Shown here: positions 9,670-38,269 of the stretch, piece by piece
How the letters are laid out: every line of letters begins with the position of its first letter
Numbering within the stretch: the first letter of the stretch is position 1
From: a virus
Virus record (IMG/VR): IMGVR_UViG_3300005827_000107
Coordinates: 1-38,395 of that record
DNA: 38,395 bases
Reading direction: 5' to 3' (one strand)
Position numbers and translations under genes: made by a program
The notes under the pieces: generated by a model
Seen by the model: the letters and a program-made list of their open reading frames with translations, nothing else
What the model was told of the DNA's origin: nothing
Database searches by the model: none

Positions 9670-9690
9670 CCTCCCCCAATTTGGGGGAGG
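9670..9690. repeat. C/G-rich palindrome after the capsid gene
   Basis: CCTCCCCCAA (9670-9679) and TTGGGGGAGG (9681-9690) are perfect arms around one base. It lies between the capsid gene and the next ribosome site. It may stabilise or trim the mRNA, or be a mobile short palindrome of the host. Confidence 0.7.
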
Positions 9691-28725: not shown

Positions 28726-28916
28726 TCTTCGCACTCATTTACCTGATCCTTCTCAACTGGTGCATCGTCTCATTCATCTACGCAGCCATCAAACGCAGCG
28801 AAGCGGGCATAGAAACATTCACAGTCTGCACACCGCTTATCTACCTCAGCTTTTACTACAACCAATATGAACTGATCGGAGTATTCCAATGGTTTCACTT
28901 ACTACCCAGAATATAA
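28722..28916 (+). CDS. 64-aa membrane protein
   Basis: Two hydrophobic segments (about residues 2-22 and 35-60). Coupled upstream by an overlapping stop/start and overlapping the tyrosine recombinase start by 28 bases. Function unknown. Confidence 0.55.
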   Translation: MIFALIYLILLNWCIVSFIYAAIKRSEAGIETFTVCTPLIYLSFYYNQYELIGVFQWFHLLPRI

Positions 28917-29815
28917 CCCTCACCACCTGGCAAGACGCATTCAATCAGCACCTCTGCCAAACATACAGCGCCAGCGCCACCATTCGCACAGCCCAGCAGC
29001 ACATCAACGTATTTGAAAAATGGTATCAAGCCCAATTCGATCAGGAATTCCAACCCACAAGCATCACCAACTACGCCTTGCGCCTCTACCAAAAACACTC
29101 GCTTGAAATCGCCCGCGTCAGCCCCAACACATGGAATTCCCGCCTGTGGGCGCTCACCATCCTCACCAGTTGGATAGAAACCCAAAACGGCGCATCTTAC
29201 TCCAACCTGTTAGTTGGTCTCAAAAACAAAGAGCAGGGCATCCGCCCAAGCAAATACCGCAGCCTATCTGACAAAGAGATCCACGACCTCATGCAGCAGA
29301 TCGAGCGCAACATTCGCGGATCAGTCACAGCCTTTGAACATCAAACCAACAAACGCGATTCCGCACTCATCACCATCATGGTCCGCGCAGGACTCCGCGT
29401 CGCAGAAGTCGCCGCCCTCGATCACACAGACCTTACCATCAACGAACGCTCAGGCAGTGTCCGCGTCCGCAATGGCAAAGGCAACAAAGAACGAATCATC
29501 CCGCTCAACAACGAAGCACGAACAGCACTAAATGAACTTATTGGAAATACTTCTGCTGCTGCCTTATTTAGTGGCAAAAACTCGGCCCGCCTCACAACCC
29601 GTCATATCGAACGCATTGTCAGCTACATCGGCTCCCAGATCGGCATCCCAGACATGAGTCCGCACTGGCTGCGCTTCACCTTCGCCAAGGCGCTGGAACG
29701 CAAAGGCATAGCCATTGAAATGATCCGCGACCTGCTGGGTCACAACAGCATCGAAACCACCAGGCGATACCTCCGCAGTTCCTTCGACGACCTGCAAGCA
29801 GCGGTTGAGATATAG
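28889..29815 (+). CDS. Tyrosine recombinase, XerC/XerD-like
   Basis: A 308-aa recombinase with a SAM-like N-terminal domain and the full catalytic set: Arg170 (AGLRVAEV), Lys near 197-200 (GKGNKER), His259-x2-Arg262 (HWLRFTF), His285 (LLGHNS) and Tyr294 (TRRYLRS). The usual LRHTFA motif reads LRFTFA. GGAG lies before the start. It sits beside the candidate origin and could resolve multimers of a circular replicon; integration is the alternative, but a serine integrase is already present. Confidence 0.85.
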   Translation: MVSLTTQNITLTTWQDAFNQHLCQTYSASATIRTAQQHINVFEKWYQAQFDQEFQPTSITNYALRLYQKHSLEIARVSPNTWNSRLWALTILTSWIETQNGASYSNLLVGLKNKEQGIRPSKYRSLSDKEIHDLMQQIERNIRGSVTAFEHQTNKRDSALITIMVRAGLRVAEVAALDHTDLTINERSGSVRVRNGKGNKERIIPLNNEARTALNELIGNTSAAALFSGKNSARLTTRHIERIVSYIGSQIGIPDMSPHWLRFTFAKALERKGIAIEMIRDLLGHNSIETTRRYLRSSFDDLQAAVEI

Positions 29816-30153
29816 CACAGCCAGCCAACTGCTAGACAGTAGTCCATGCCGCCGCCTAGTGAATAAGCAGAAGTAGAAAAAATCATAAAGTTCACCAATC
29901 TATATGCGGATGCCCTCACAGGCACGCAGGCACACAGAAAAGAGCATGGCAAGGTCGTAGAACAAGCATTATGCGACACAAAAGGCATGATACCAGTTGA
30001 AACTAGCGGTTAGATTGGGCAATAAGCATATAGATTTATGTCGCATAAAGTGACAGACAGATCATTTTGAGAGGGGGGGGACTTTCAAAATGATTTGGGG
30101 GGCGGGTGGCTGGCAACGGATGCCCACATACTGAGCAATTTTTGGAGAAACGT
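29816..30153. other. Non-coding region, candidate replication origin or recombinase site
   Basis: 338 bases with no gene. It holds an inverted repeat TTATGCGACA (29969-29978) / TGTCGCATAA (30039-30048), one copy of a TAACCGCTAG motif on the minus strand (30003-30016), and a hairpin with ATCATTTTGA (30061-30070) / TCAAAATGAT (30085-30094) whose loop has eight Gs. The + strand changes here from C-rich to G-rich genes. These features fit an origin or a site for the adjacent tyrosine recombinase. Confidence 0.45.
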
Positions 30154-31317
30154 ATGAATAGTTTTGCAGATTTTATCGAGCAAGTGAGAGATGCTAATCC
30201 AATTGAGGATGTGCTGGCGGCGGATGGAATTTCTCTGCGCGGGCATGGGCGTTTGCGCACGGCTCAAAAACACGACAGCATGAAGGTGCGAACGGATTAT
30301 GGACGTGTGTTTTGGTATTCGCAGAATTGGAATGGGGATGTATTCGGGTGGGTGATGCGCGAGAAAGGATGTGATTTCAACGGGGCGCTTGAACTGCTGG
30401 CGAGACGGGCAAATATTGAAATGCCGAAATTCGCGGCTCGTGATGAGGGTGTTATTTTGCGGGCGCGTGCTACTGCTGATGTTTTTTCGGTGGCGGCGAA
30501 TGTTTTCCATCGGTGGCTGGTGGGGGACAAGGAGCGCGGGGTGGAGGCGGATGCCGATGCGCTGGCTTATGCGCGCGGGCGAGCATGGACTGATGAGACG
30601 ATCAATGCTGAGTTGATCGGTTTTTCTGGAAGGAAGAGCGCGGCACAGGTGGCGGATATGAAAGGGGAGTTCTCGATGTGCGGGATCGATATTTTTTCTC
30701 CTGCTGCTGTGGCGGTGTTGGGGTTCCAAGGGGATGTGGATAAGTGGGGGCGTGAGAAGGGCGTGCGCGACCATGAGGATTTCGATGAGGATTGGATCTT
30801 GAAGGGGCGCATTCATGGATTGATGGATACACCTGGAATTATTTATGCACATCAGCACAAAGGCGGTGTGAATTATTTGAGCCGCAGACATCTGCCTGGA
30901 TTTGACAAGATCCATGACAGGGAAACTGGAAAGGATCGGGATTGGAAGTCTTTTAATCCTTATAAGTTGCTGGCTGGAATGAAGCAGCCTTATTTCAACC
31001 ATTGCCATCGGATGGATAAGCCGTTGATCGGTGTGGAAGGGCAGGGGGATGCTGTGACATACAGCCAGTGGGGGTATGGGGCAATCGCATTTTGCGGTTT
31101 GATGGGCAATATTTCGGAGGCTTCGACTGAGGATGCCGAGAGAATGCGGGCTTTGGCGGCGATGATCAATAAACACCCTGCGTTTTATCTTTTCATGGAT
31201 GACGATGAAGCTGGTCAGAAGACGGTACGGCTGGCGGCAAAACTTTTAGGGCCGAAAATGTTAGTAGGACGCATGACCAGGCTTGTGTCACGTGATGAGG
31301 CGAACAATGTCGAATAG
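30154..31317 (+). CDS. DnaG-like primase with TOPRIM domain
   Basis: A 387-aa protein; the start at 30154 follows GGAG and avoids an upstream in-frame ATG at 30106. The first ~90 residues resemble the CHC2 zinc domain in layout (IEDVLAADGISLRGHGRL, then VFGWVMREKG and FNGALELLA) but lack the zinc-binding Cys residues. The TOPRIM part shows the acidic site VEGQGDA (Glu295) and MDDDEAG (348-354). It would make RNA primers for replication. Next to a helicase gene and overlapping it by 11 bases. Confidence 0.85.
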   Translation: MNSFADFIEQVRDANPIEDVLAADGISLRGHGRLRTAQKHDSMKVRTDYGRVFWYSQNWNGDVFGWVMREKGCDFNGALELLARRANIEMPKFAARDEGVILRARATADVFSVAANVFHRWLVGDKERGVEADADALAYARGRAWTDETINAELIGFSGRKSAAQVADMKGEFSMCGIDIFSPAAVAVLGFQGDVDKWGREKGVRDHEDFDEDWILKGRIHGLMDTPGIIYAHQHKGGVNYLSRRHLPGFDKIHDRETGKDRDWKSFNPYKLLAGMKQPYFNHCHRMDKPLIGVEGQGDAVTYSQWGYGAIAFCGLMGNISEASTEDAERMRALAAMINKHPAFYLFMDDDEAGQKTVRLAAKLLGPKMLVGRMTRLVSRDEANNVE

Positions 31318-33238
31318 CAAAGCGATGATCAAGGACGCAAATGCCCAATTGCAGGATTGGTCTGCGAAGGGATTCAGCATAGAGAAACAAAAGGCAAGCG
31401 TTGAAGGCTGGCTGAAAAACGCTGAGATGTATTTGATGGTGTGGGCGAATGAGATCGGCGAGATGCAATCGCTGAAGGATAAGGGCGAGGCGCTGAATTA
31501 TTTCTTCAAGCTGGCAGTTGCTGAACTTTCGGCGGAGGACCGCGCGGGATATAAGGCGGCGTTATGCACGGCGTTGAATATCAAGGCTACTGAATGGACT
31601 GAACGGCTGAAGGCTTTGAGCGACGCGGCGAAAACTGCGAAAGAGGATGATGAGCCTGAGACGGTAACGATCATGGGCGGGTGGTTCCCAGATGATGAGA
31701 CGGAAAATAGCGGCTGGTTGTTGGAGCCGTTCTATGACAAGAACGCAGATACGACCCGCTGGGCATACGCGCGGATCAGCGATATGGAAAACGATGTGCG
31801 TGAGATCGGCGTGGATGACTACAAGACGATTGACGGCAAGAAGTATGTGCCGCTGATGGATGAAAACATTAAATACGGGACGATCATTTTGCCGAGCGGG
31901 TTGGGTCCGTTGAAAAGCACAAGCGAATTGATCTGTGAAGTGGACAAGTTTGTGCGGAAGCATTTTCTAATGGATGAGGCTTCGCGCTATAAGCTCTCGG
32001 CGACTTACGCGGTTTTTACGTGGGTATATGACAGCTTTGATGCGCTGAATTTTCTGCGGGCGATGGGCGGGAGCGGTTCTGGGAAAAGCGATCTGATGTA
32101 TTTGATCGGGCTGTGCTCGTATCGGTTGATGGTGACGCTTTCGGTTTCTTCCACTGCTTCCTATAAAGGTCTGGCGCATTTATACAAGGGTACGCTGTTC
32201 ATTGATGAGGCGCAAGACTTGATGAAGAAGGACGATGGGACGATGCGGTCATTGTTGAAGGGGCGGGCAACGAAGCGGTATGCAAATGTGGTGAATATGA
32301 TGGAGGTTCATTCGCCGAATGGAAAGACGTTTGTGCCTTCGACATCACAGGTTTATGGCCCGACGCTGATCACGATGTACGGGGCGTTTGATGATGCGGG
32401 TATTGAGAACCGCTGTGTGAGCTTTGCGCTGAGCCAGCGCGATACTCTGGAACTGGACCGCGTGGGAATTGAGCCTGGCTACTATCCGCCTGAACTGGAT
32501 GAGCAGGCAGACCGAATTCGCGGGATGCTGCTGCATTGGAGATTGAAGACGTGGAAGAAGAAGATCGAGCTGACACCAGAGGAACGGGCGCGGCCTGAGA
32601 ATAAGTTGAGCGATCCGCTGGTGAGTCCGCGTGTGAACCAGGTGATGCGACCGATGAAGGTTTTGGCGGTGAAGGAAAACGACCGCGAGCTGCTGGCTGA
32701 ATTGAAGATGATCGGGCAGGCCAATTATGAGGATGAAATGACGAAGCGCGCCAGTTCATTTGAGGCGATCATTTTGCGTGCGGTGATCGCGGCGGATACA
32801 AGGACTGGATATGCCGATAAGGTGAAGGAGGGGAGGCTCGGCAAGCTGGGAACGGTGCGTTATATCCTCTATAAGGAACTGGCGCTGATCACGAATGAGA
32901 TATTGGATTCGGAGAACCTGGCTGACGGGCAGGTGGACGATAAGAAAAAGAATTCGGTGAAGACGCGCACTATCGGCGAGATATGCCGAGAAACTTTCAG
33001 GATGCCAGTGGCGCGGACAGGCGACGGGTGGGCGGTGGTGCTTGATCAGGATCGGATCGAGATGGGCAAGCTGCGGTTTGGTCTGGACCGTGAGGAAGCG
33101 GAAGCCAAGGCTGAAGGCGAGAAAAATTCGGTGGGCGCAGCTCCAATGGTGAAAGCGGATGAGCAATTGAACTTTGAGGATGGCCCTGTGGCGGCGCAGG
33201 CAGTTTGGAATGAAGAAACACAAGATTGGGAGTTTTGA
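31307..33238 (+). CDS. P-loop replicative helicase-like ATPase
   Basis: A 643-aa protein with Walker A GGSGSGKS (254-261) and Walker B LFIDEAQD (297-304), plus a sensor-like region further on. The N-terminal ~240 residues are a separate domain (EPFYDKNADTTRWAYARISD) as in DUF927-type and related phage or plasmid helicases. Paired with the primase, it is the probable replicative helicase. Start at 31307 chosen over an earlier ATG at 31283, which lies further inside the primase gene. Confidence 0.75.
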   Translation: MSNSKAMIKDANAQLQDWSAKGFSIEKQKASVEGWLKNAEMYLMVWANEIGEMQSLKDKGEALNYFFKLAVAELSAEDRAGYKAALCTALNIKATEWTERLKALSDAAKTAKEDDEPETVTIMGGWFPDDETENSGWLLEPFYDKNADTTRWAYARISDMENDVREIGVDDYKTIDGKKYVPLMDENIKYGTIILPSGLGPLKSTSELICEVDKFVRKHFLMDEASRYKLSATYAVFTWVYDSFDALNFLRAMGGSGSGKSDLMYLIGLCSYRLMVTLSVSSTASYKGLAHLYKGTLFIDEAQDLMKKDDGTMRSLLKGRATKRYANVVNMMEVHSPNGKTFVPSTSQVYGPTLITMYGAFDDAGIENRCVSFALSQRDTLELDRVGIEPGYYPPELDEQADRIRGMLLHWRLKTWKKKIELTPEERARPENKLSDPLVSPRVNQVMRPMKVLAVKENDRELLAELKMIGQANYEDEMTKRASSFEAIILRAVIAADTRTGYADKVKEGRLGKLGTVRYILYKELALITNEILDSENLADGQVDDKKKNSVKTRTIGEICRETFRMPVARTGDGWAVVLDQDRIEMGKLRFGLDREEAEAKAEGEKNSVGAAPMVKADEQLNFEDGPVAAQAVWNEETQDWEF

Positions 33239-33557
33239 GTTTATGAACATTTATGAACATGATGAACCAGTTTTCGGGATGCGGGCTGATTTTGAAAATT
33301 TTCAAATTTTTTCCAGTGCTACATGCGTTTTTATGTTCATAATGCTTCATATAGTTCATAAATTTGATTATGCGAAGCGGTTTTTGATGATTTTGGACGA
33401 TTTGAGCAATATCTCAATCTATTTAATGAACCAGATGTAGGTTTATGAAGAAGGGTTTATTAAGCGTTTTTTTTTGAAAGTGCCTTTCTTTTTCTTCTAA
33501 TGTATGAACATGGAAAACAGGCGTACTTCATAGATGTTCATTAAAAAGGATGTGAAT
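33239..33557 (+). repeat. AT-rich iteron-like array (TTATGAACAT)
   Basis: Two tandem 10-bp repeats TTATGAACAT (33241-33260), further copies or near copies at 33503-33511 (TATGAACAT), inverted at 33333-33342 (ATGTTCATAA) and 33534-33544 (ATGTTCATTAA), and partial forms near 33353 and 33425. The 319-base stretch has no convincing gene and is AT-rich. It fits a replication origin with iterons or a multi-site operator controlling the next genes. Confidence 0.65.
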
Positions 33558-33791
33558 ATGTCAGACAATTCAAATTCGATAGCGGTTAGGCAGTTTGTGG
33601 CGATTGTGCGGGGTGAAATCTCTGTGCATGTGCCGAGGAATGAGTTTCAGACGGTGCAGGTGGGCAAGGATGAACGGTATTGCCTGCGGTGCTGCGCTGT
33701 GCGGGTGTGGGATCTGTGGCGCGGGAAGCATGAGGGGCTGGAGTTCCTGCTTGGCCGCTGCCGCGCGTGCGGTTTGGAGAAGACATTATGA
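33558..33791 (+). CDS. 77-aa zinc-ribbon protein
   Basis: The start at 33558 follows AAAAAGGATGTGAAT. Two Cys pairs, CLRCC and CRACG, about 29 residues apart form a probable zinc ribbon. Overlaps the next start (ATGA). Likely binds nucleic acid; no family assigned. Confidence 0.65.
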   Translation: MSDNSNSIAVRQFVAIVRGEISVHVPRNEFQTVQVGKDERYCLRCCAVRVWDLWRGKHEGLEFLLGRCRACGLEKTL

Positions 33792-34156
33792 GCGCGGTGA
33801 TCGTTTGTACGAATTGCGGCGAAGGTTATGTTGCCAGGCGTTGGGTGGAGCGCGGTTGGTGCCGAAAGAAGGAATGCAGAAAAGCGGCAAATATTGAGTA
33901 TTTGCATCGGTCGCTGGGTTTGGCAAAAGTGCGGCCTGTGGATCTGCGGCAGGCGATCCTTCGGCGGGTGAAGGCGCTGGAGGTGGTGAATGATCCGCTG
34001 GATGTAGGCGGGTTTGCGAAGGGTACGGTTTTTATTCAGGAGCATTGGGAGCGGATGTTGTTCAATTTCAGCTTTACGCCTGGGACTATTTTGAAGGACA
34101 GTCAGAACAGACTTTACGAGTTTCGAGTGAAGGATATGGAGGTTGAATATGCCTAA
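33788..34156 (+). CDS. 122-aa protein with N-terminal zinc-knuckle
   Basis: The start at 33788 shares ATGA with the previous gene. N-terminus has VCTNCGEGYVARRW and CRKKECRK, a four-Cys site often seen in small phage DNA-binding proteins. The C-terminal ~60 residues may form another domain (YEFRVKDMEVEYA). Unknown role in the replication/maintenance operon. Confidence 0.6.
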   Translation: MSAVIVCTNCGEGYVARRWVERGWCRKKECRKAANIEYLHRSLGLAKVRPVDLRQAILRRVKALEVVNDPLDVGGFAKGTVFIQEHWERMLFNFSFTPGTILKDSQNRLYEFRVKDMEVEYA

Positions 34157-34424
34157 TATTGTTGATACGACGAAGGTCAGCGGCGAGTTATTGCACCAGA
34201 TGGGGCTGCGCGGCGAGGTGGCGATGTGGAGCTTTGACGGTTTTGATTATTGGTGGGTTGAGGATGTGCTGTGGTGCGCACGGATCAAGCGGTCAGAGCC
34301 TGAATTGACCAAGGATGAATTGAAGCTGGGGCGGACAATCACTTATTTGATGCTGTTGATTTTTGCAGGTGAGGTTTCGTGTTGTTTGACATTTATCTTT
34401 TGGGCGCTTGGAGGTATGCGATGA
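34149..34424 (+). CDS. 91-aa protein with C-terminal membrane segment
   Basis: The start at 34149 follows GGAGG (34138-34142). The first ~60 residues are soluble (VAMWSFDGFDYWWVEDVLWC) and the last ~25 are hydrophobic. Overlaps the next gene by ATGA. Function unknown. Confidence 0.6.
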   Translation: MPNIVDTTKVSGELLHQMGLRGEVAMWSFDGFDYWWVEDVLWCARIKRSEPELTKDELKLGRTITYLMLLIFAGEVSCCLTFIFWALGGMR

Positions 34425-35095
34425 CTGAGGCGAGGAATTGGAAGTGGATGATCCCTGGCATGGCGCTGGGTTTGGCGATGCTGTTGACGCGGTTTTTGCT
34501 GATGTCGCCTACTGATTGGGTGCGCTGGCTGGCTGTGATGCCTGGATTTATTTCGGCGATGTGCGCGATTGCGGCAATCGGCAATCTGGTGGATTATCGG
34601 CGGGAGCAGAGCACAGGAATGTTTGAGCGCAGACGCAGGGCTATGTCGCTGACACCACTTTCGGCGGAGTTGGATGCGGCGCGGGGTGTGCATCCTGATG
34701 TGGTGAAGGTGCTGATCAATGAGCGGCATCGGGTTTGGATGTTGAAAAGCGGTGTGAGGTCTGAGGGGATCAATCCGCATTCGGTTTTGTTCGGTGCGCC
34801 CGATGTGACGGATTCATTCCTGATGTATTTTCTGCAATCTTCGACGGATAGCACGGTGATGCCGAAGCGGTTGCTGGTGGAAGGTCGAAAGAATAGGTTT
34901 GATCCGTGGGGGGCGGTGGATGAATATACGATGTATGACCATTTGCTGGCGCTGTTGGAGAAGCAGGGAAAGGTGGTGAAGTGGAGCGAGTTTTCACAGT
35001 TCGAGTGGTGCGATCCGTGGACGCCTGCGCTGGTGGCTGAGGATTTTGGTCTGGAATGGGAAGCTGAGTCGGTTGAAGAAGTTGCTGAAGTATAA
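34421..35095 (+). CDS. 224-aa protein with two N-terminal membrane segments
   Basis: The start at 34421 overlaps the previous stop; an earlier TTG at 34379 is rejected. Membrane segments lie at about residues 9-28 and 34-54, followed by a soluble domain of ~165 residues ending in an acidic tail (EAESVEEVAEV). No family recognised. It precedes the actin-like gene and could anchor replication or partition at the membrane. Confidence 0.6.
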   Translation: MTEARNWKWMIPGMALGLAMLLTRFLLMSPTDWVRWLAVMPGFISAMCAIAAIGNLVDYRREQSTGMFERRRRAMSLTPLSAELDAARGVHPDVVKVLINERHRVWMLKSGVRSEGINPHSVLFGAPDVTDSFLMYFLQSSTDSTVMPKRLLVEGRKNRFDPWGAVDEYTMYDHLLALLEKQGKVVKWSEFSQFEWCDPWTPALVAEDFGLEWEAESVEEVAEV

Positions 35096-35113
35096 AAATT
35101 CAAGGAGAAAACA

Positions 35114-36091
35114 ATGGATACAAAAATGAATTCGGTTGGTTTGGATGCTGGCATGGGCGCGATCAAGATGTGGTCTGAGGCTGGCGGGTTGGATATGCTT
35201 TCGCAGGTGGCGACGAATGGCGGAGGGCATTTGGACGGGATGATCGGGTTGAAGGCGGCTGTTCGTCCGCTGATGATCGAGACTGCGGACGGCGAATTTT
35301 ATGTTGGGGAACGGGCGCACAATTACGGGCGGCCTGTGGAGAATATGAATTTTGACCGCTTCGGCGGAAGCCCTGAAATGCGTGTGATGGTGTACGGAAC
35401 ATGGACACGTTACATGCAACAGCACGGCGCTTTCGATGCTCCGCTTTCGGTGATGGTTGGTTTACCGCTTCAGACGATGGGCGAGAGTTTGAAAGAAAGC
35501 CGTTTGCAGATCCGCCGCTGGATGATGGGTCAGCATCGTTGGAAGGCTGATGGTGTGGAGTTTGCGCTGGAGGTGGGGCGCGTGCGTTGGAATTCCCAGC
35601 CTGTGGGCGCGTTGTTTGATTATGTGATGGATTTTAACGGTAATCCTGTTGAGGGACATGAGCGGGCGCTGCGTGATGAAACTGCGATCTTGAGCGTTGG
35701 GTTCAACACGCTTGAATTGATGGTGGTGCAGAACCAGACGGTGAATGAACGTTTTACGGCTGGCGCAAAATTGGGCGTTCGCCGCCTGCTGGATTTGGTG
35801 AGCAAGAAATATTCGCTCGGCGAGTTGGATGTGATGCTGAGAGGCGGAAACCTGAAATATAAAGATAAGCTGCCGATCTGGGCAAGCGAAGTGAACGGCA
35901 TGATCGAGGATACGTGGGGCGAAGATTTGAGCCGCTTTGCGGGTGTGCTGGTGGTGGGCGGTGGTGCGCTGTTGTTAGGTCCATCTTTGAACCTTGTGGC
36001 TGACGGCGTGAATAAGGCTGTGCTGAGCGATAACCCTGTGCAGAGCATTGCGCGCGGGTTATATAAGCTGGATATGAAGAATAAAGGATAA
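35114..36091 (+). CDS. ParM/Alp-like actin homologue (DNA segregation)
   Basis: A 325-aa protein of the actin ATPase fold. Phosphate-1 loop GLDAGMGAIK (9-18), phosphate-2-like SVGFNTLELMV (194-204) and adenosine motif VLVVGGGALLL (278-288) are in the right order. Such proteins form filaments that push plasmid copies apart. Ribosome site AAGGAG. Followed by a small ParR-like gene, as in type II partition systems. Some phages use similar proteins inside the cell, so that alternative stays open. Confidence 0.8.
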   Translation: MDTKMNSVGLDAGMGAIKMWSEAGGLDMLSQVATNGGGHLDGMIGLKAAVRPLMIETADGEFYVGERAHNYGRPVENMNFDRFGGSPEMRVMVYGTWTRYMQQHGAFDAPLSVMVGLPLQTMGESLKESRLQIRRWMMGQHRWKADGVEFALEVGRVRWNSQPVGALFDYVMDFNGNPVEGHERALRDETAILSVGFNTLELMVVQNQTVNERFTAGAKLGVRRLLDLVSKKYSLGELDVMLRGGNLKYKDKLPIWASEVNGMIEDTWGEDLSRFAGVLVVGGGALLLGPSLNLVADGVNKAVLSDNPVQSIARGLYKLDMKNKG

Positions 36092-36096
36092 GGCTG

Positions 36097-36369
36097 ATGG
36101 CTCGTAAAAAGAAAGTTGGTGTGGCTCGGCATTTGCATATTGATCCCTATATCTGGCCTGGCGAGGATGCGCGGCGCGATAAGTTGCTAGCTTGGTATGA
36201 GTCTTTACCCGCGCGCCAGCGGACAAAAATGGTCGTTGACCTGCTCGTGGCTGCGATCCACGGTGAGTTGGGTGTGGCAATCGCTGCGGATATGAGCGAT
36301 GAAAATGCGGCGGCGAATAAATCTGCGCTTGAAGAATTGTTGATGAACATGGCGCAGGATGAGGAATAG
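36097..36369 (+). CDS. ParR-like adaptor/DNA-binding protein
   Basis: A 90-aa protein 5 bases after the actin-like gene. The basic N-terminus with RHLHIDPYIW, the helical centre (RTKMVVDLLVAAIHG) and the acidic C-terminus match the usual layout of ParR-type ribbon-helix-helix proteins that bind centromere repeats and cap ParM filaments. The call depends on size, layout and neighbour. Confidence 0.6.
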   Translation: MARKKKVGVARHLHIDPYIWPGEDARRDKLLAWYESLPARQRTKMVVDLLVAAIHGELGVAIAADMSDENAAANKSALEELLMNMAQDEE

Positions 36370-36370
36370 T

Positions 36371-36411
36371 AATTTAACCGCTAAAAATGGATAAATCAAT
36401 TTAACCGCTAG
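36371..36411 (+). repeat. Direct repeats AATTTAACCGCTA, candidate centromere
   Basis: AATTTAACCGCTA at 36371-36383 and AATTTAACCGCTAG at 36398-36411, 27 bases apart start to start. A third copy with one change lies inverted at 30003-30016. Located right behind the ParR-like gene, they may be ParR binding sites. Confidence 0.5.
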
Positions 36412-36416
36412 ATAAA

Positions 36417-36493
36417 CTCCCCCACTCGGCTTTGATGTTTGTGTGTGCGCTCAGGATATACGCGGGAATGGGCATCGGGCTGAAGTGGGGGAG
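36417..36493. repeat. Inverted repeat with 57-base loop
   Basis: CTCCCCCACT (36417-36426) and AGTGGGGGAG (36484-36493) are perfect arms, with GATG/CATC extending the pairing inward. It may be a hairpin element separating the partition genes from the downstream operon. Confidence 0.5.
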
Positions 36494-36523
36494 GGGAAGA
36501 AAATTGATGTGTGTGAGGCTGTG

Positions 36524-36973
36524 ATGATCAAAGTTGTTGAAAATATTTTGAGAGATGACGGAATGAAGTTCGTGAAAGTTGTGAGTTCTTTGGATGTGAA
36601 AATTCCGCTTGGGAAATTTGTCCCAGGCTATTTGGTGAAGTATGTTCCGCATTATATCCATGCGGCGCAGGCGGTAAATGATGAACTTGGCATTATGACA
36701 ACTGTTTTTGAGTTCCCCATGCTGGGGCCAGTGGATGTAGTGCAGGGTGACGGGGAGTTGAAAAAATTCTTTGTTGTGCATCGCAGGTACGGGCGGAGTG
36801 TGAGCGATTGCGTGCGGATCGGGATGGATGGGTGGCTGCATGGGACGGGTTATCACGCGCAGTTTGGATATGTCCGCAGTTTGCCGAGCGGTGTGGAGTG
36901 CGGGCGTGAGGCGTTTGGCGTAATGGTGTTCGAGGCGGAGTGGATGTTATCTGATTGTGTGGCTGTACGATAA
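36524..36973 (+). CDS. 149-aa unknown protein
   Basis: The start is uncertain: ATG at 36524 has GAGG nearby; GTG at 36509 follows a strong purine-rich site GGGGAGGGGA. The product is soluble with mixed alpha/beta content (VDVVQGDGELKKFFVVHRRY). No family recognised. It precedes the Cys-rich gene and intI, on the same strand and with the same G-rich coding bias. Confidence 0.55.
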   Translation: MIKVVENILRDDGMKFVKVVSSLDVKIPLGKFVPGYLVKYVPHYIHAAQAVNDELGIMTTVFEFPMLGPVDVVQGDGELKKFFVVHRRYGRSVSDCVRIGMDGWLHGTGYHAQFGYVRSLPSGVECGREAFGVMVFEAEWMLSDCVAVR

Positions 36974-37001
36974 ATGAGTTGTATTGCGATTGGAGGTCGT
37001 G

Positions 37002-37298
37002 ATGAAAGAATGGAAATGTAAGCGGGGGCACATTATCGGATATATCAAGGAGGTAAACGGCACAACGCAGTTGATGGTGCTGCGAACTGCGCTGGATATG
37101 AATATTGAGAAACCAAGCGAAGTTGATTTATTGGGGCCTTTGAGCGGGAGTATGAATGTGACCTGTTCTGCGTGTGGTGATGTGCGTCCGTGGGTGATCT
37201 CGGTCGATGCGCTGCTGGATCTTTTCCTGCGGTTGGAAAATAAGAAGGCGTTCGAGTTTTCGGTTAGGTTGCTGGAGAAGGGCAGAGGTGAGGCATGA
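37002..37298 (+). CDS. 98-aa zinc-ribbon-like protein coupled to intI
   Basis: The start at 37002 follows GGAGG (36991-36995). CKRGH near the N-terminus and CSACG further on can form a zinc site. The stop overlaps the intI start by ATGA, so translation of intI likely depends on this gene. Unknown function; possibly a regulator or DNA-binding partner. Confidence 0.62.
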
Positions 37299-38269
37299 GT
37301 CAATTTCTTAATTCGATCCGCGAGAAGATCAGGATCAAGCATTATTCATATAAAACTGAAAAGGCTTATGTAGATTGGGCTGAACGTTTTATCCGATTTC
37401 ATAAACTACGCCATCCTGCGGAGATGGGTTTGGATGAGGTCGAGAAGTTTATATCTCATCTTGCGATTGAGCGGCATGTGAGCGCATCCACTCAGAATCA
37501 GGCTCTTCATGCGCTGTTGTTCATGTATGAGCATGTGATCGGTGTGAAGTTGGGAAATGTGCAGGCGGTACGCGCAAAGAAATCACATCATATTCCAACT
37601 GTATTATCGCAGGATGAAGTAAAGAAAATTCTTGGGCGGTTGAACGGCGTGTATTACATCATCGGGCGTTTGCTTTATGGAAGCGGAATGCGGTTGATGG
37701 AATGTATGCGCTTGCGGGTGAAGGATGTCGATTTTGACCTGCGAACGGTGACAGTGCGCGATACAAAATCAGACCGTGATCGGGTGACAGTTTTGCCGTC
37801 TTCGGTGATCGATCCGCTGCGGACGCACCTGAAGCGGGTTGCCATTCAGCATGAAGAGGATCTGCGCCTTGGGTACGGTTCGGTGGAAATGCCTGGCGCG
37901 CTGGCTGTGAAATATCCGAAGGCGGAATATGAATGGGGCTGGCAATATGTTTTCCCTGCTGGGAAGTTTTCCACCGATCCGCGCAGCGGAATTGTTAGAC
38001 GGCATCATTTATTTGAAACCAGCGTTCAGAAGGCGGTCAGGCGTGCGGCAGTTGAATCAGGAATTTCAAAGCCTGTGGGTCCGCATACGCTGAGACATTC
38101 GTTCGCAACTCATCTGTTGCAGGAAGGATACGATATTCGGAAAATACAGGAATTGCTCGGTCATCAGGACCTCAAAACCACAATGATTTATACACATGTG
38201 GCAAATGTTTCGGCAGGGGTTAGATCACCTGCTGATTTATTGGATATTAGTGACCCTGTGGGTCTCTAA
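37295..38269 (+). CDS. intI: Integron integrase
   Basis: A 324-aa tyrosine recombinase of the IntI type. Catalytic residues: Arg133 (GSGMRLME), Lys158 (DTKSDRD), His264-x2-Arg267 ([11 protein letters not shown]), His290 (LLGHQD) and Tyr299 (MIYTHV). It also has the IntI-specific extra segment between patches II and III (about 205-240: [18 protein letters not shown]), absent from Xer and phage integrases and needed to bind folded attC. Starts within the previous stop (ATGA), so it is part of a phage-side operon. Its G-rich strand bias matches the neighbours. It would insert and excise cassettes at attI and attC. Confidence 0.95.

Follow-up and report, generated by a model that had tools for sequence, protein, structure and literature searches.

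Can a tailed phage be inherited as a plasmid by means of its own actin filament? This question is raised by IMGVR_UViG_3300005827_000107, a virus record of 38,395 bases from IMG/VR, classed as linear and analyzed here over its whole length (the window), in which the initial annotation had placed a maintenance block consisting of a primase, a helicase, iteron-like repeats, a ParM-like actin and a ParR-like partner with direct repeats. Within this block lies a cassette of two genes, alp, which encodes an actin-like protein (ALP), and parR, which encodes a small ParR-like adapter. We consider it likely that the phage is temperate and can be maintained as a plasmid, and that the cassette serves it as a type II (ParMRC-like) partition system whose centromere is minimal. 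New in this system are the candidate two-site centromere conserved across a group of phages, the joint change of its sites with ParR, and a third site at the primase gene (Table 1).

An Actin-Like Motor and Its Putative Adapter

The ALP exceeds the gathering scores of PF17989 (34.8 bits) and PF21522 (31.6 bits), matches phrog_691, annotated as "partition protein" (E 2.5e-27), and has a profile match to pCBH ParM (E 2e-7), family assignments which provide the actin-superfamily ATPase motor expected of type II (ParMRC) partition and bear out the ParM-like actin first proposed. At about residue 194 (an approximate placement against ParM), the stretch SVGFNTLE stands where the second phosphate motif of an actin is expected, and it lacks the aspartate usual there; the ATPase cycle of ALP may differ.

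With the single window ALP as query, no close relatives were retrieved, and likewise none from the plasmid collection. A tblastn search found Virus Rctr41k (KX853513; L002), a partial genome whose ALP is about 60% identical to that of the window and whose ALP and ParR are annotated as "hypothetical protein"; a literature search found no paper naming this virus. Rctr41k has the ALP, ParR, site pair, IntI-type integrase and a phage module syntenic with the window. Profile scans added two IMG/VR contigs (L003 and L004) and a contig from an Anaerolineales metagenome-assembled genome (MAG), L005, with an ALP 93% identical to that of the window.

The adapter has no family match and no detectable sequence relation to known ParR, and its identity as a ParR-like protein rests on where it lies, on its conservation and on its changing in step with the repeats. 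An invariant RHLHIDPY motif is present in the small partner of Rctr41k, L003, L004 and L005, and by analogy to ribbon-helix-helix proteins, residues H12 and H14 (R and R in a second class described below) would face the DNA. The parR gene adjoins alp except in L003, where a methyltransferase-type gene lies between them, and in L002, which has an extra open reading frame (ORF). The linkage is thus kept despite insertions, namely a DNA-methyltransferase-like gene at L003 10972-11627 and a methyltransferase-like ORF at L002 2317-2604.

Paired Sites Change Together With ParR

The window contains exactly two TTAACCGCTA direct repeats, 27 nt apart, immediately 3' of parR, in agreement with the direct repeats reported initially. 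Such a pair adjoins the ALP-parR cassette of 19 phage-type loci, either after parR or before alp, with a spacing of 27-28 nt throughout; it is 3' of parR in Rctr41k, L005 and L003 (in the latter with one change per site) and 5' of alp in L004. The pair of L003 is the most degenerate, and this contig has an extra single CTAACCGCTA site upstream of alp (9674-9683, minus strand). Directly upstream of the pair in L004 is a gene for an FtsK/SpoIIIE-like ATPase (811-2013; sub-threshold Pfam match).

When 2.9 million viral contigs were scanned for two copies of TTAACCGCTA separated by 16-19 nt, only the contig of L004 and a new contig, L007, were returned, both ALP-ParR phages; in L007, the pair immediately follows the genes for a divergent ALP (38% identical) and ParR. 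L015 and L016, recovered by a scan for a hairpin located 3' of the sites, have sites reading TTAACCGTCA/TTAACCGCCA, and their ParR carries RxRxDGY in place of HxHxDPY. Reading of the sites by ParR would predict an RxR ParR in further contigs that have TTAACCGYCA pairs, and this prediction held: a scan for such pairs yielded 13 contigs (11 of them new). Each of these has a large terminase and, next to the pair, an RxRxDG ParR, and 12 have an ALP, the pair of the thirteenth being only 459 nt from the contig start. The site scans did not select for ParR class. Overall, HxH (RHLHIDPY-type) ParRs occur with CTA or CTG (6/6) and RxR ParRs with YCA (13/13), in 19 loci that are related by descent, were partly collected by site pattern and do not represent 19 independent events.

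The decamer pairs in these 19 loci are direct repeats in cis, beside the operon and matched to its adapter, as would be expected of a centromere. The pair may be a minimal two-site centromere, perhaps among the smallest known (two 10-bp sites). In about 200 Anaerolineales genomes, the pair is absent except for a phage contig in G003 and a match in G152, which lies inside a host-type coding gene and was rejected as chance.

A Third Site Upstream of the Primase

An inverted copy of the site, CAATCTAACCGCTAG, lies upstream of the primase gene of the window (30004-30013, minus strand), with counterparts at the equivalent position of G001 and G004, which are the contigs of L003 and L007. It is midway between two inverted 10-bp arms, at a distance of 35 nt measured start to start. 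The RxR-ParR phages G207 and G217 have this element with identical 35/35 spacing and CTAACCGCCA at its center, the third site thus switching from CTA to CCA with ParR class; in G217, both arms are changed together (TTATGTGACA/TGTCACATAA), and G209 keeps the arms with no recognizable center. Given this third site, partition appears to be linked to replication. It is possible, if short of an even prospect, that ParR is a shared switch acting on the two-site centromere and, at the primase promoter, on a rigid element in which a ParR site is flanked on each side by 25 nt and then an arm; through this switch, actin-based partition would directly gate replication initiation or multimer resolution.

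Replication Genes, Recombinases, and Genome Topology

The primase has Toprim and CHC2 zinc-finger matches just below or under cut-off and matches phrog_6444, "DNA primase" (E 1e-11). The helicase-like protein has Walker A (GGSGSGKS) and Walker B (LFIDE) motifs, no family match and an AlphaFold2 (AF2) model with a pLDDT of 34, and is homologous to the C-terminal half of fused primase-helicases of 940-1080 aa that are found with tyrosine recombinases in Anaerolineales genomes. Protein and hidden Markov model searches with both proteins against phage records, plasmid records and the PDB gave nothing useful. A primase-helicase is present in every cassette record examined for it, cut by the contig edge in G205 and found in Rctr41k only as a partial match at another place. 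A programmed frameshift between the two genes was considered and rejected, with no slippery site seen and a simple ATG/stop overlap.

Downstream of the helicase gene, an AT-rich gap (33239-33560; GC 0.32 versus 0.50) contains five TATGAACAT sites, four exact and one with a mismatch, in mixed orientation; shuffled sequences average 0.19 sites, and none of 1000 shuffles reaches five. The syntenic gap in L003 has other repeats, GGTGAACATCA/TGATGTTCACC, with the common core TGAACAT, and a replication origin in the gap is plausible. The maintenance block of the initial annotation is confirmed, its helicase lacking a family match; "iteron-like" is a fair term given the mixed orientation of the repeats, and the serine integrase is confirmed by three families (Table 1).

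The related phages have a common gene order of serine integrase, Xer, primase-helicase, ALP, ParR and terminase. The Xer-like gene is kept upstream of the primase in phages and Anaerolineales elements and is present in the longer records. Since the serine integrase and plasmid functions occur together in four records, including the window, the proposal that the phage could either integrate or persist as a plasmid is plausible, with the extrachromosomal form itself not observed. Contigs break at differing points of the map, between parR and terminase in the window, helicase and alp in G002, and Xer and alp in Rctr41k. In the window, the contig continues across the integrase region, which has phage genes to its left and right. 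Such permuted ends fit a circular or circularly permuted molecule. The window also encodes the tailed-phage structural genes (terminase, portal, minor head, major capsid and tape measure), and thus combines the virion, plasmid replication and partition genes by which a phage-plasmid is recognized.

Other Features of the Region

A hairpin between the sites and the next gene scores 79-91 bits in six loci (window, L003, L005, L007, L015 and L016), with four stem pairs changed on both sides, a covarying lower stem and an invariant GTGCGC loop region; it has no Rfam match, and matches in L017 and L018 (23 bits) were set aside as chance. The hairpin may be a 5' untranslated region structure or part of the centromere. 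It is absent where the pair precedes alp (L004, L098 and L101), and was rejected as a part of every centromere. Two small genes 3' of the site region (36524-36973 and 36984-37298), also present in several relatives, have no family matches. They are followed by a recombinase gene (37295-38269) that belongs to the integron-integrase family by its TIGR02249 score; this integron-integrase-family recombinase in a phage is common to the window and Rctr41k (L002 4680-5678).

In a genome survey, ALP homologs were found in about 24 of 201 Anaerolineales-related genomes (e.g., L021, L022, L026, L027, L031 and L038). Several of these homologs precede other small ParR-like proteins, after which a tyrosine recombinase often comes, and have no TTAACCG pair, suggesting a wider family of actin partition modules.

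Table 1. Coordinates, strand and supporting evidence for features of the window.
Feature	Position	Strand	Evidence or remark
Large serine integrase, 530 aa	23939..25531	-	PF00239, PF13408, PF07508 above cut-off; phrog_95 E 1e-60
Xer-like tyrosine recombinase, candidate resolvase	28889..29815	+	PF00589; TIGR02224/NF040815 sub-threshold
Left arm TTATGCGACA	29969..29978	+	Exactly 35 nt before central site in window, G001, G004, G207, G217
Third (inverted) ParR-type site CTAACCGCTA	30004..30013	-	Same place in G001, G004
Right arm TGTCGCATAA	30039..30048	+	Inverted copy of left arm; exactly 35 nt after central site in five phages
DnaG-type primase (CHC2-like + Toprim)	30154..31317	+	phrog_6444, homologs
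P-loop ATPase/putative helicase, 643 aa	31307..33238	+	Overlaps primase stop; fused to primase in relatives
AT-rich intergenic repeat cluster (TATGAACAT), candidate origin/operator region	33239..33533	.	Shuffles
Actin-like (ParM/Alp family) protein, ALP, 325 aa	35114..36091	+	PF17989, PF21522, phrog_691, pCBH ParM
ParR-like adapter, 90 aa, RHLHIDPY class	36097..36369	+	Homologs in 18 other loci; class matches site class
ParR-type site 1 TTAACCGCTA	36374..36383	+	Pair beside cassette
ParR-type site 2 TTAACCGCTA	36401..36410	+	27 nt from site 1
Conserved hairpin CTCCCCCAC...GTGCGCT...GTGGGGGAG	36416..36497	+	Between sites and next gene
Integron-integrase-family tyrosine recombinase	37295..38269	+	TIGR02249 442 bits, cut-off 265

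Comparison With Known Systems and Alternative Explanations

Similarly to the type II ParMRC systems of R1, pSK41 and pCBH ParM, the cassette has a gene for an actin-family motor, then one for a small adapter, together with short direct repeats; the 10-bp unit is that of pSK41, in whose parC such repeats form a series (PMC4911067), and pCBH ParM is further related by its profile match to the ALP. It differs from these systems in that its sites number only two, with a spacing of 27-28 nt, and usually lie 3' of parR, often with the conserved hairpin after them; in addition, its ParR is unrelated at detectable sequence level. Bacillus phage B83 is a proven circular plasmid prophage with replication, Xer-like recombinase and partition genes, and B83-like and other Bacillus ParM plasmid prophages have, like the window, a siphovirus-type genome, a ParM-like protein, a small adapter and an Xer recombinase (PMC6669507, PMC8026635). 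In contrast to these, the window group is Chloroflexota-associated, has a primase-helicase in place of the RepA-like initiator, keeps a serine integrase and has the third adapter-type site upstream of the primase.

The main alternative to partition is a role like that of AlpC, in which ALP and ParR would anchor or transport phage DNA during lytic replication of an integrating phage, and not serve plasmid inheritance. The precedent is AlpC/AlpA/alpS of the Corynebacterium prophage CGP3, a phage-encoded actin with a DNA adapter that serves viral DNA replication and has an alpS consensus, TTAAnnG, which fits TTAACCG (PMC4446434); AlpC/AlpA has also been cited to illustrate that a phage actin need not imply a plasmid state (PMC8026635). 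The resemblance of TTAAnnG to TTAACCG is short and may be due to chance. The conserved serine integrase also favors an AlpC-like role, as does the third ParR-type site, which ties the system to replication. However, the motor precedes the adapter here, as in ParMRC, and only two repeats are present, mostly downstream, whereas AlpAC has the adapter gene first and 24 alpS repeats upstream (PMC4446434); moreover, an Xer recombinase and a primase-helicase accompany the cassette, as in plasmid prophages (PMC8026635). An AlpC-like role is, in our judgment, unlikely.

Two further explanations concern the sites and not the filament. The paired repeats could be sites for a recombinase (of integron-integrase or Xer type) or a repressor, given the integron-integrase-family gene 0.9 kb downstream and the fit of some repeats to a GTTRRRY core on the opposite strand, but this is very improbable, as the site sequence tracks ParR class at two separate places; integron-integrase sites specifically were rejected, since just 2 of 6 related records have a TIGR02249 match above cut-off and all six have the pair. 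The element upstream of the primase, for its part, could be an Xer recombination site or a replication-initiator site in which the ParR-like decamer is incidental, an explanation for the third site only, leaving the cassette unaffected. Instead of the three-part element, a compact site, GCRACATAA-N7-TTATGTYGC, lies at the same place close upstream of the primase gene in the fused primase-helicase phages G002, G206 and G208 and in the Anaerolineales genome elements G022, G148 and G104 (imperfect in the last), with an Xer-type recombinase gene upstream in those examined. The inner sequence of the arms, CATAA/TTATG, we take to be dif-like, and multimer resolution at the arms is possible. The change of the central decamer from CTA to CCA, following ParR class in G207 and G217, argues against an incidental decamer, which we find somewhat unlikely.

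Several observations weigh against a ParMRC-like system in a plasmid prophage. Two sites are few for a centromere when compared to pSK41 parC and alpS. Known parC sits upstream of parM, unlike the site pair, which is usually downstream, although pSK41 parRC still functioned when rearranged so that parC followed parR (PMC4911067). The fold of ParR lacks confirmation: the structure prediction that the initial annotation had suggested as a check gave an AF2 model with a pLDDT of 58, which was too poor to match or contradict a ParR fold, and a PDB search with the protein returned no relative. The probable host, Anaerolineales (Chloroflexota), is assigned from one 6.5-kb MAG contig and the distribution of homologs. 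Neither terminal repeats nor signs of circularity were seen in any contig, and all virus records checked are classed as linear. The phage-plasmid lifestyle put forward initially is partly supported: it gains from a well-supported actin/ParR reading and from a gene set as in B83, and is held back by the linear records and by a phage actin being no proof on its own.

Proposed Mechanism and Implications

Under ParMRC-like partition, the block would serve to maintain a temperate siphovirus-like phage in its Anaerolineales host: the split primase-helicase would replicate circular phage DNA, ParR dimers on the two TTAACCGCTA sites beside the alp-parR operon would link this DNA to ALP filaments, and the filaments would separate or position the DNA copies, as in type II (ParMRC) systems. 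The third site would let ParR also occupy the primase control region, where it might adjust replication or provide another point of anchoring. Multimers would probably be resolved by the neighboring Xer-like recombinase, and the serine integrase would provide an alternative route, chromosomal integration.

This system would extend actin-based DNA segregation to a Chloroflexota-associated phage group. The specificity switch of its adapter (HxH with CTA, RxR with YCA) is addressable by single substitutions and resembles an incompatibility system for phage-plasmids; it has a plasmid precedent, since adapter-site specificity is reported to underlie incompatibility among ParMRC plasmids of Clostridium perfringens (PMC9426499). 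Additionally, the ParR-type site at the primase makes the coordination of partition with replication directly testable, and the link from adapter to primase, if true, would be a new form of segregation-replication coupling.

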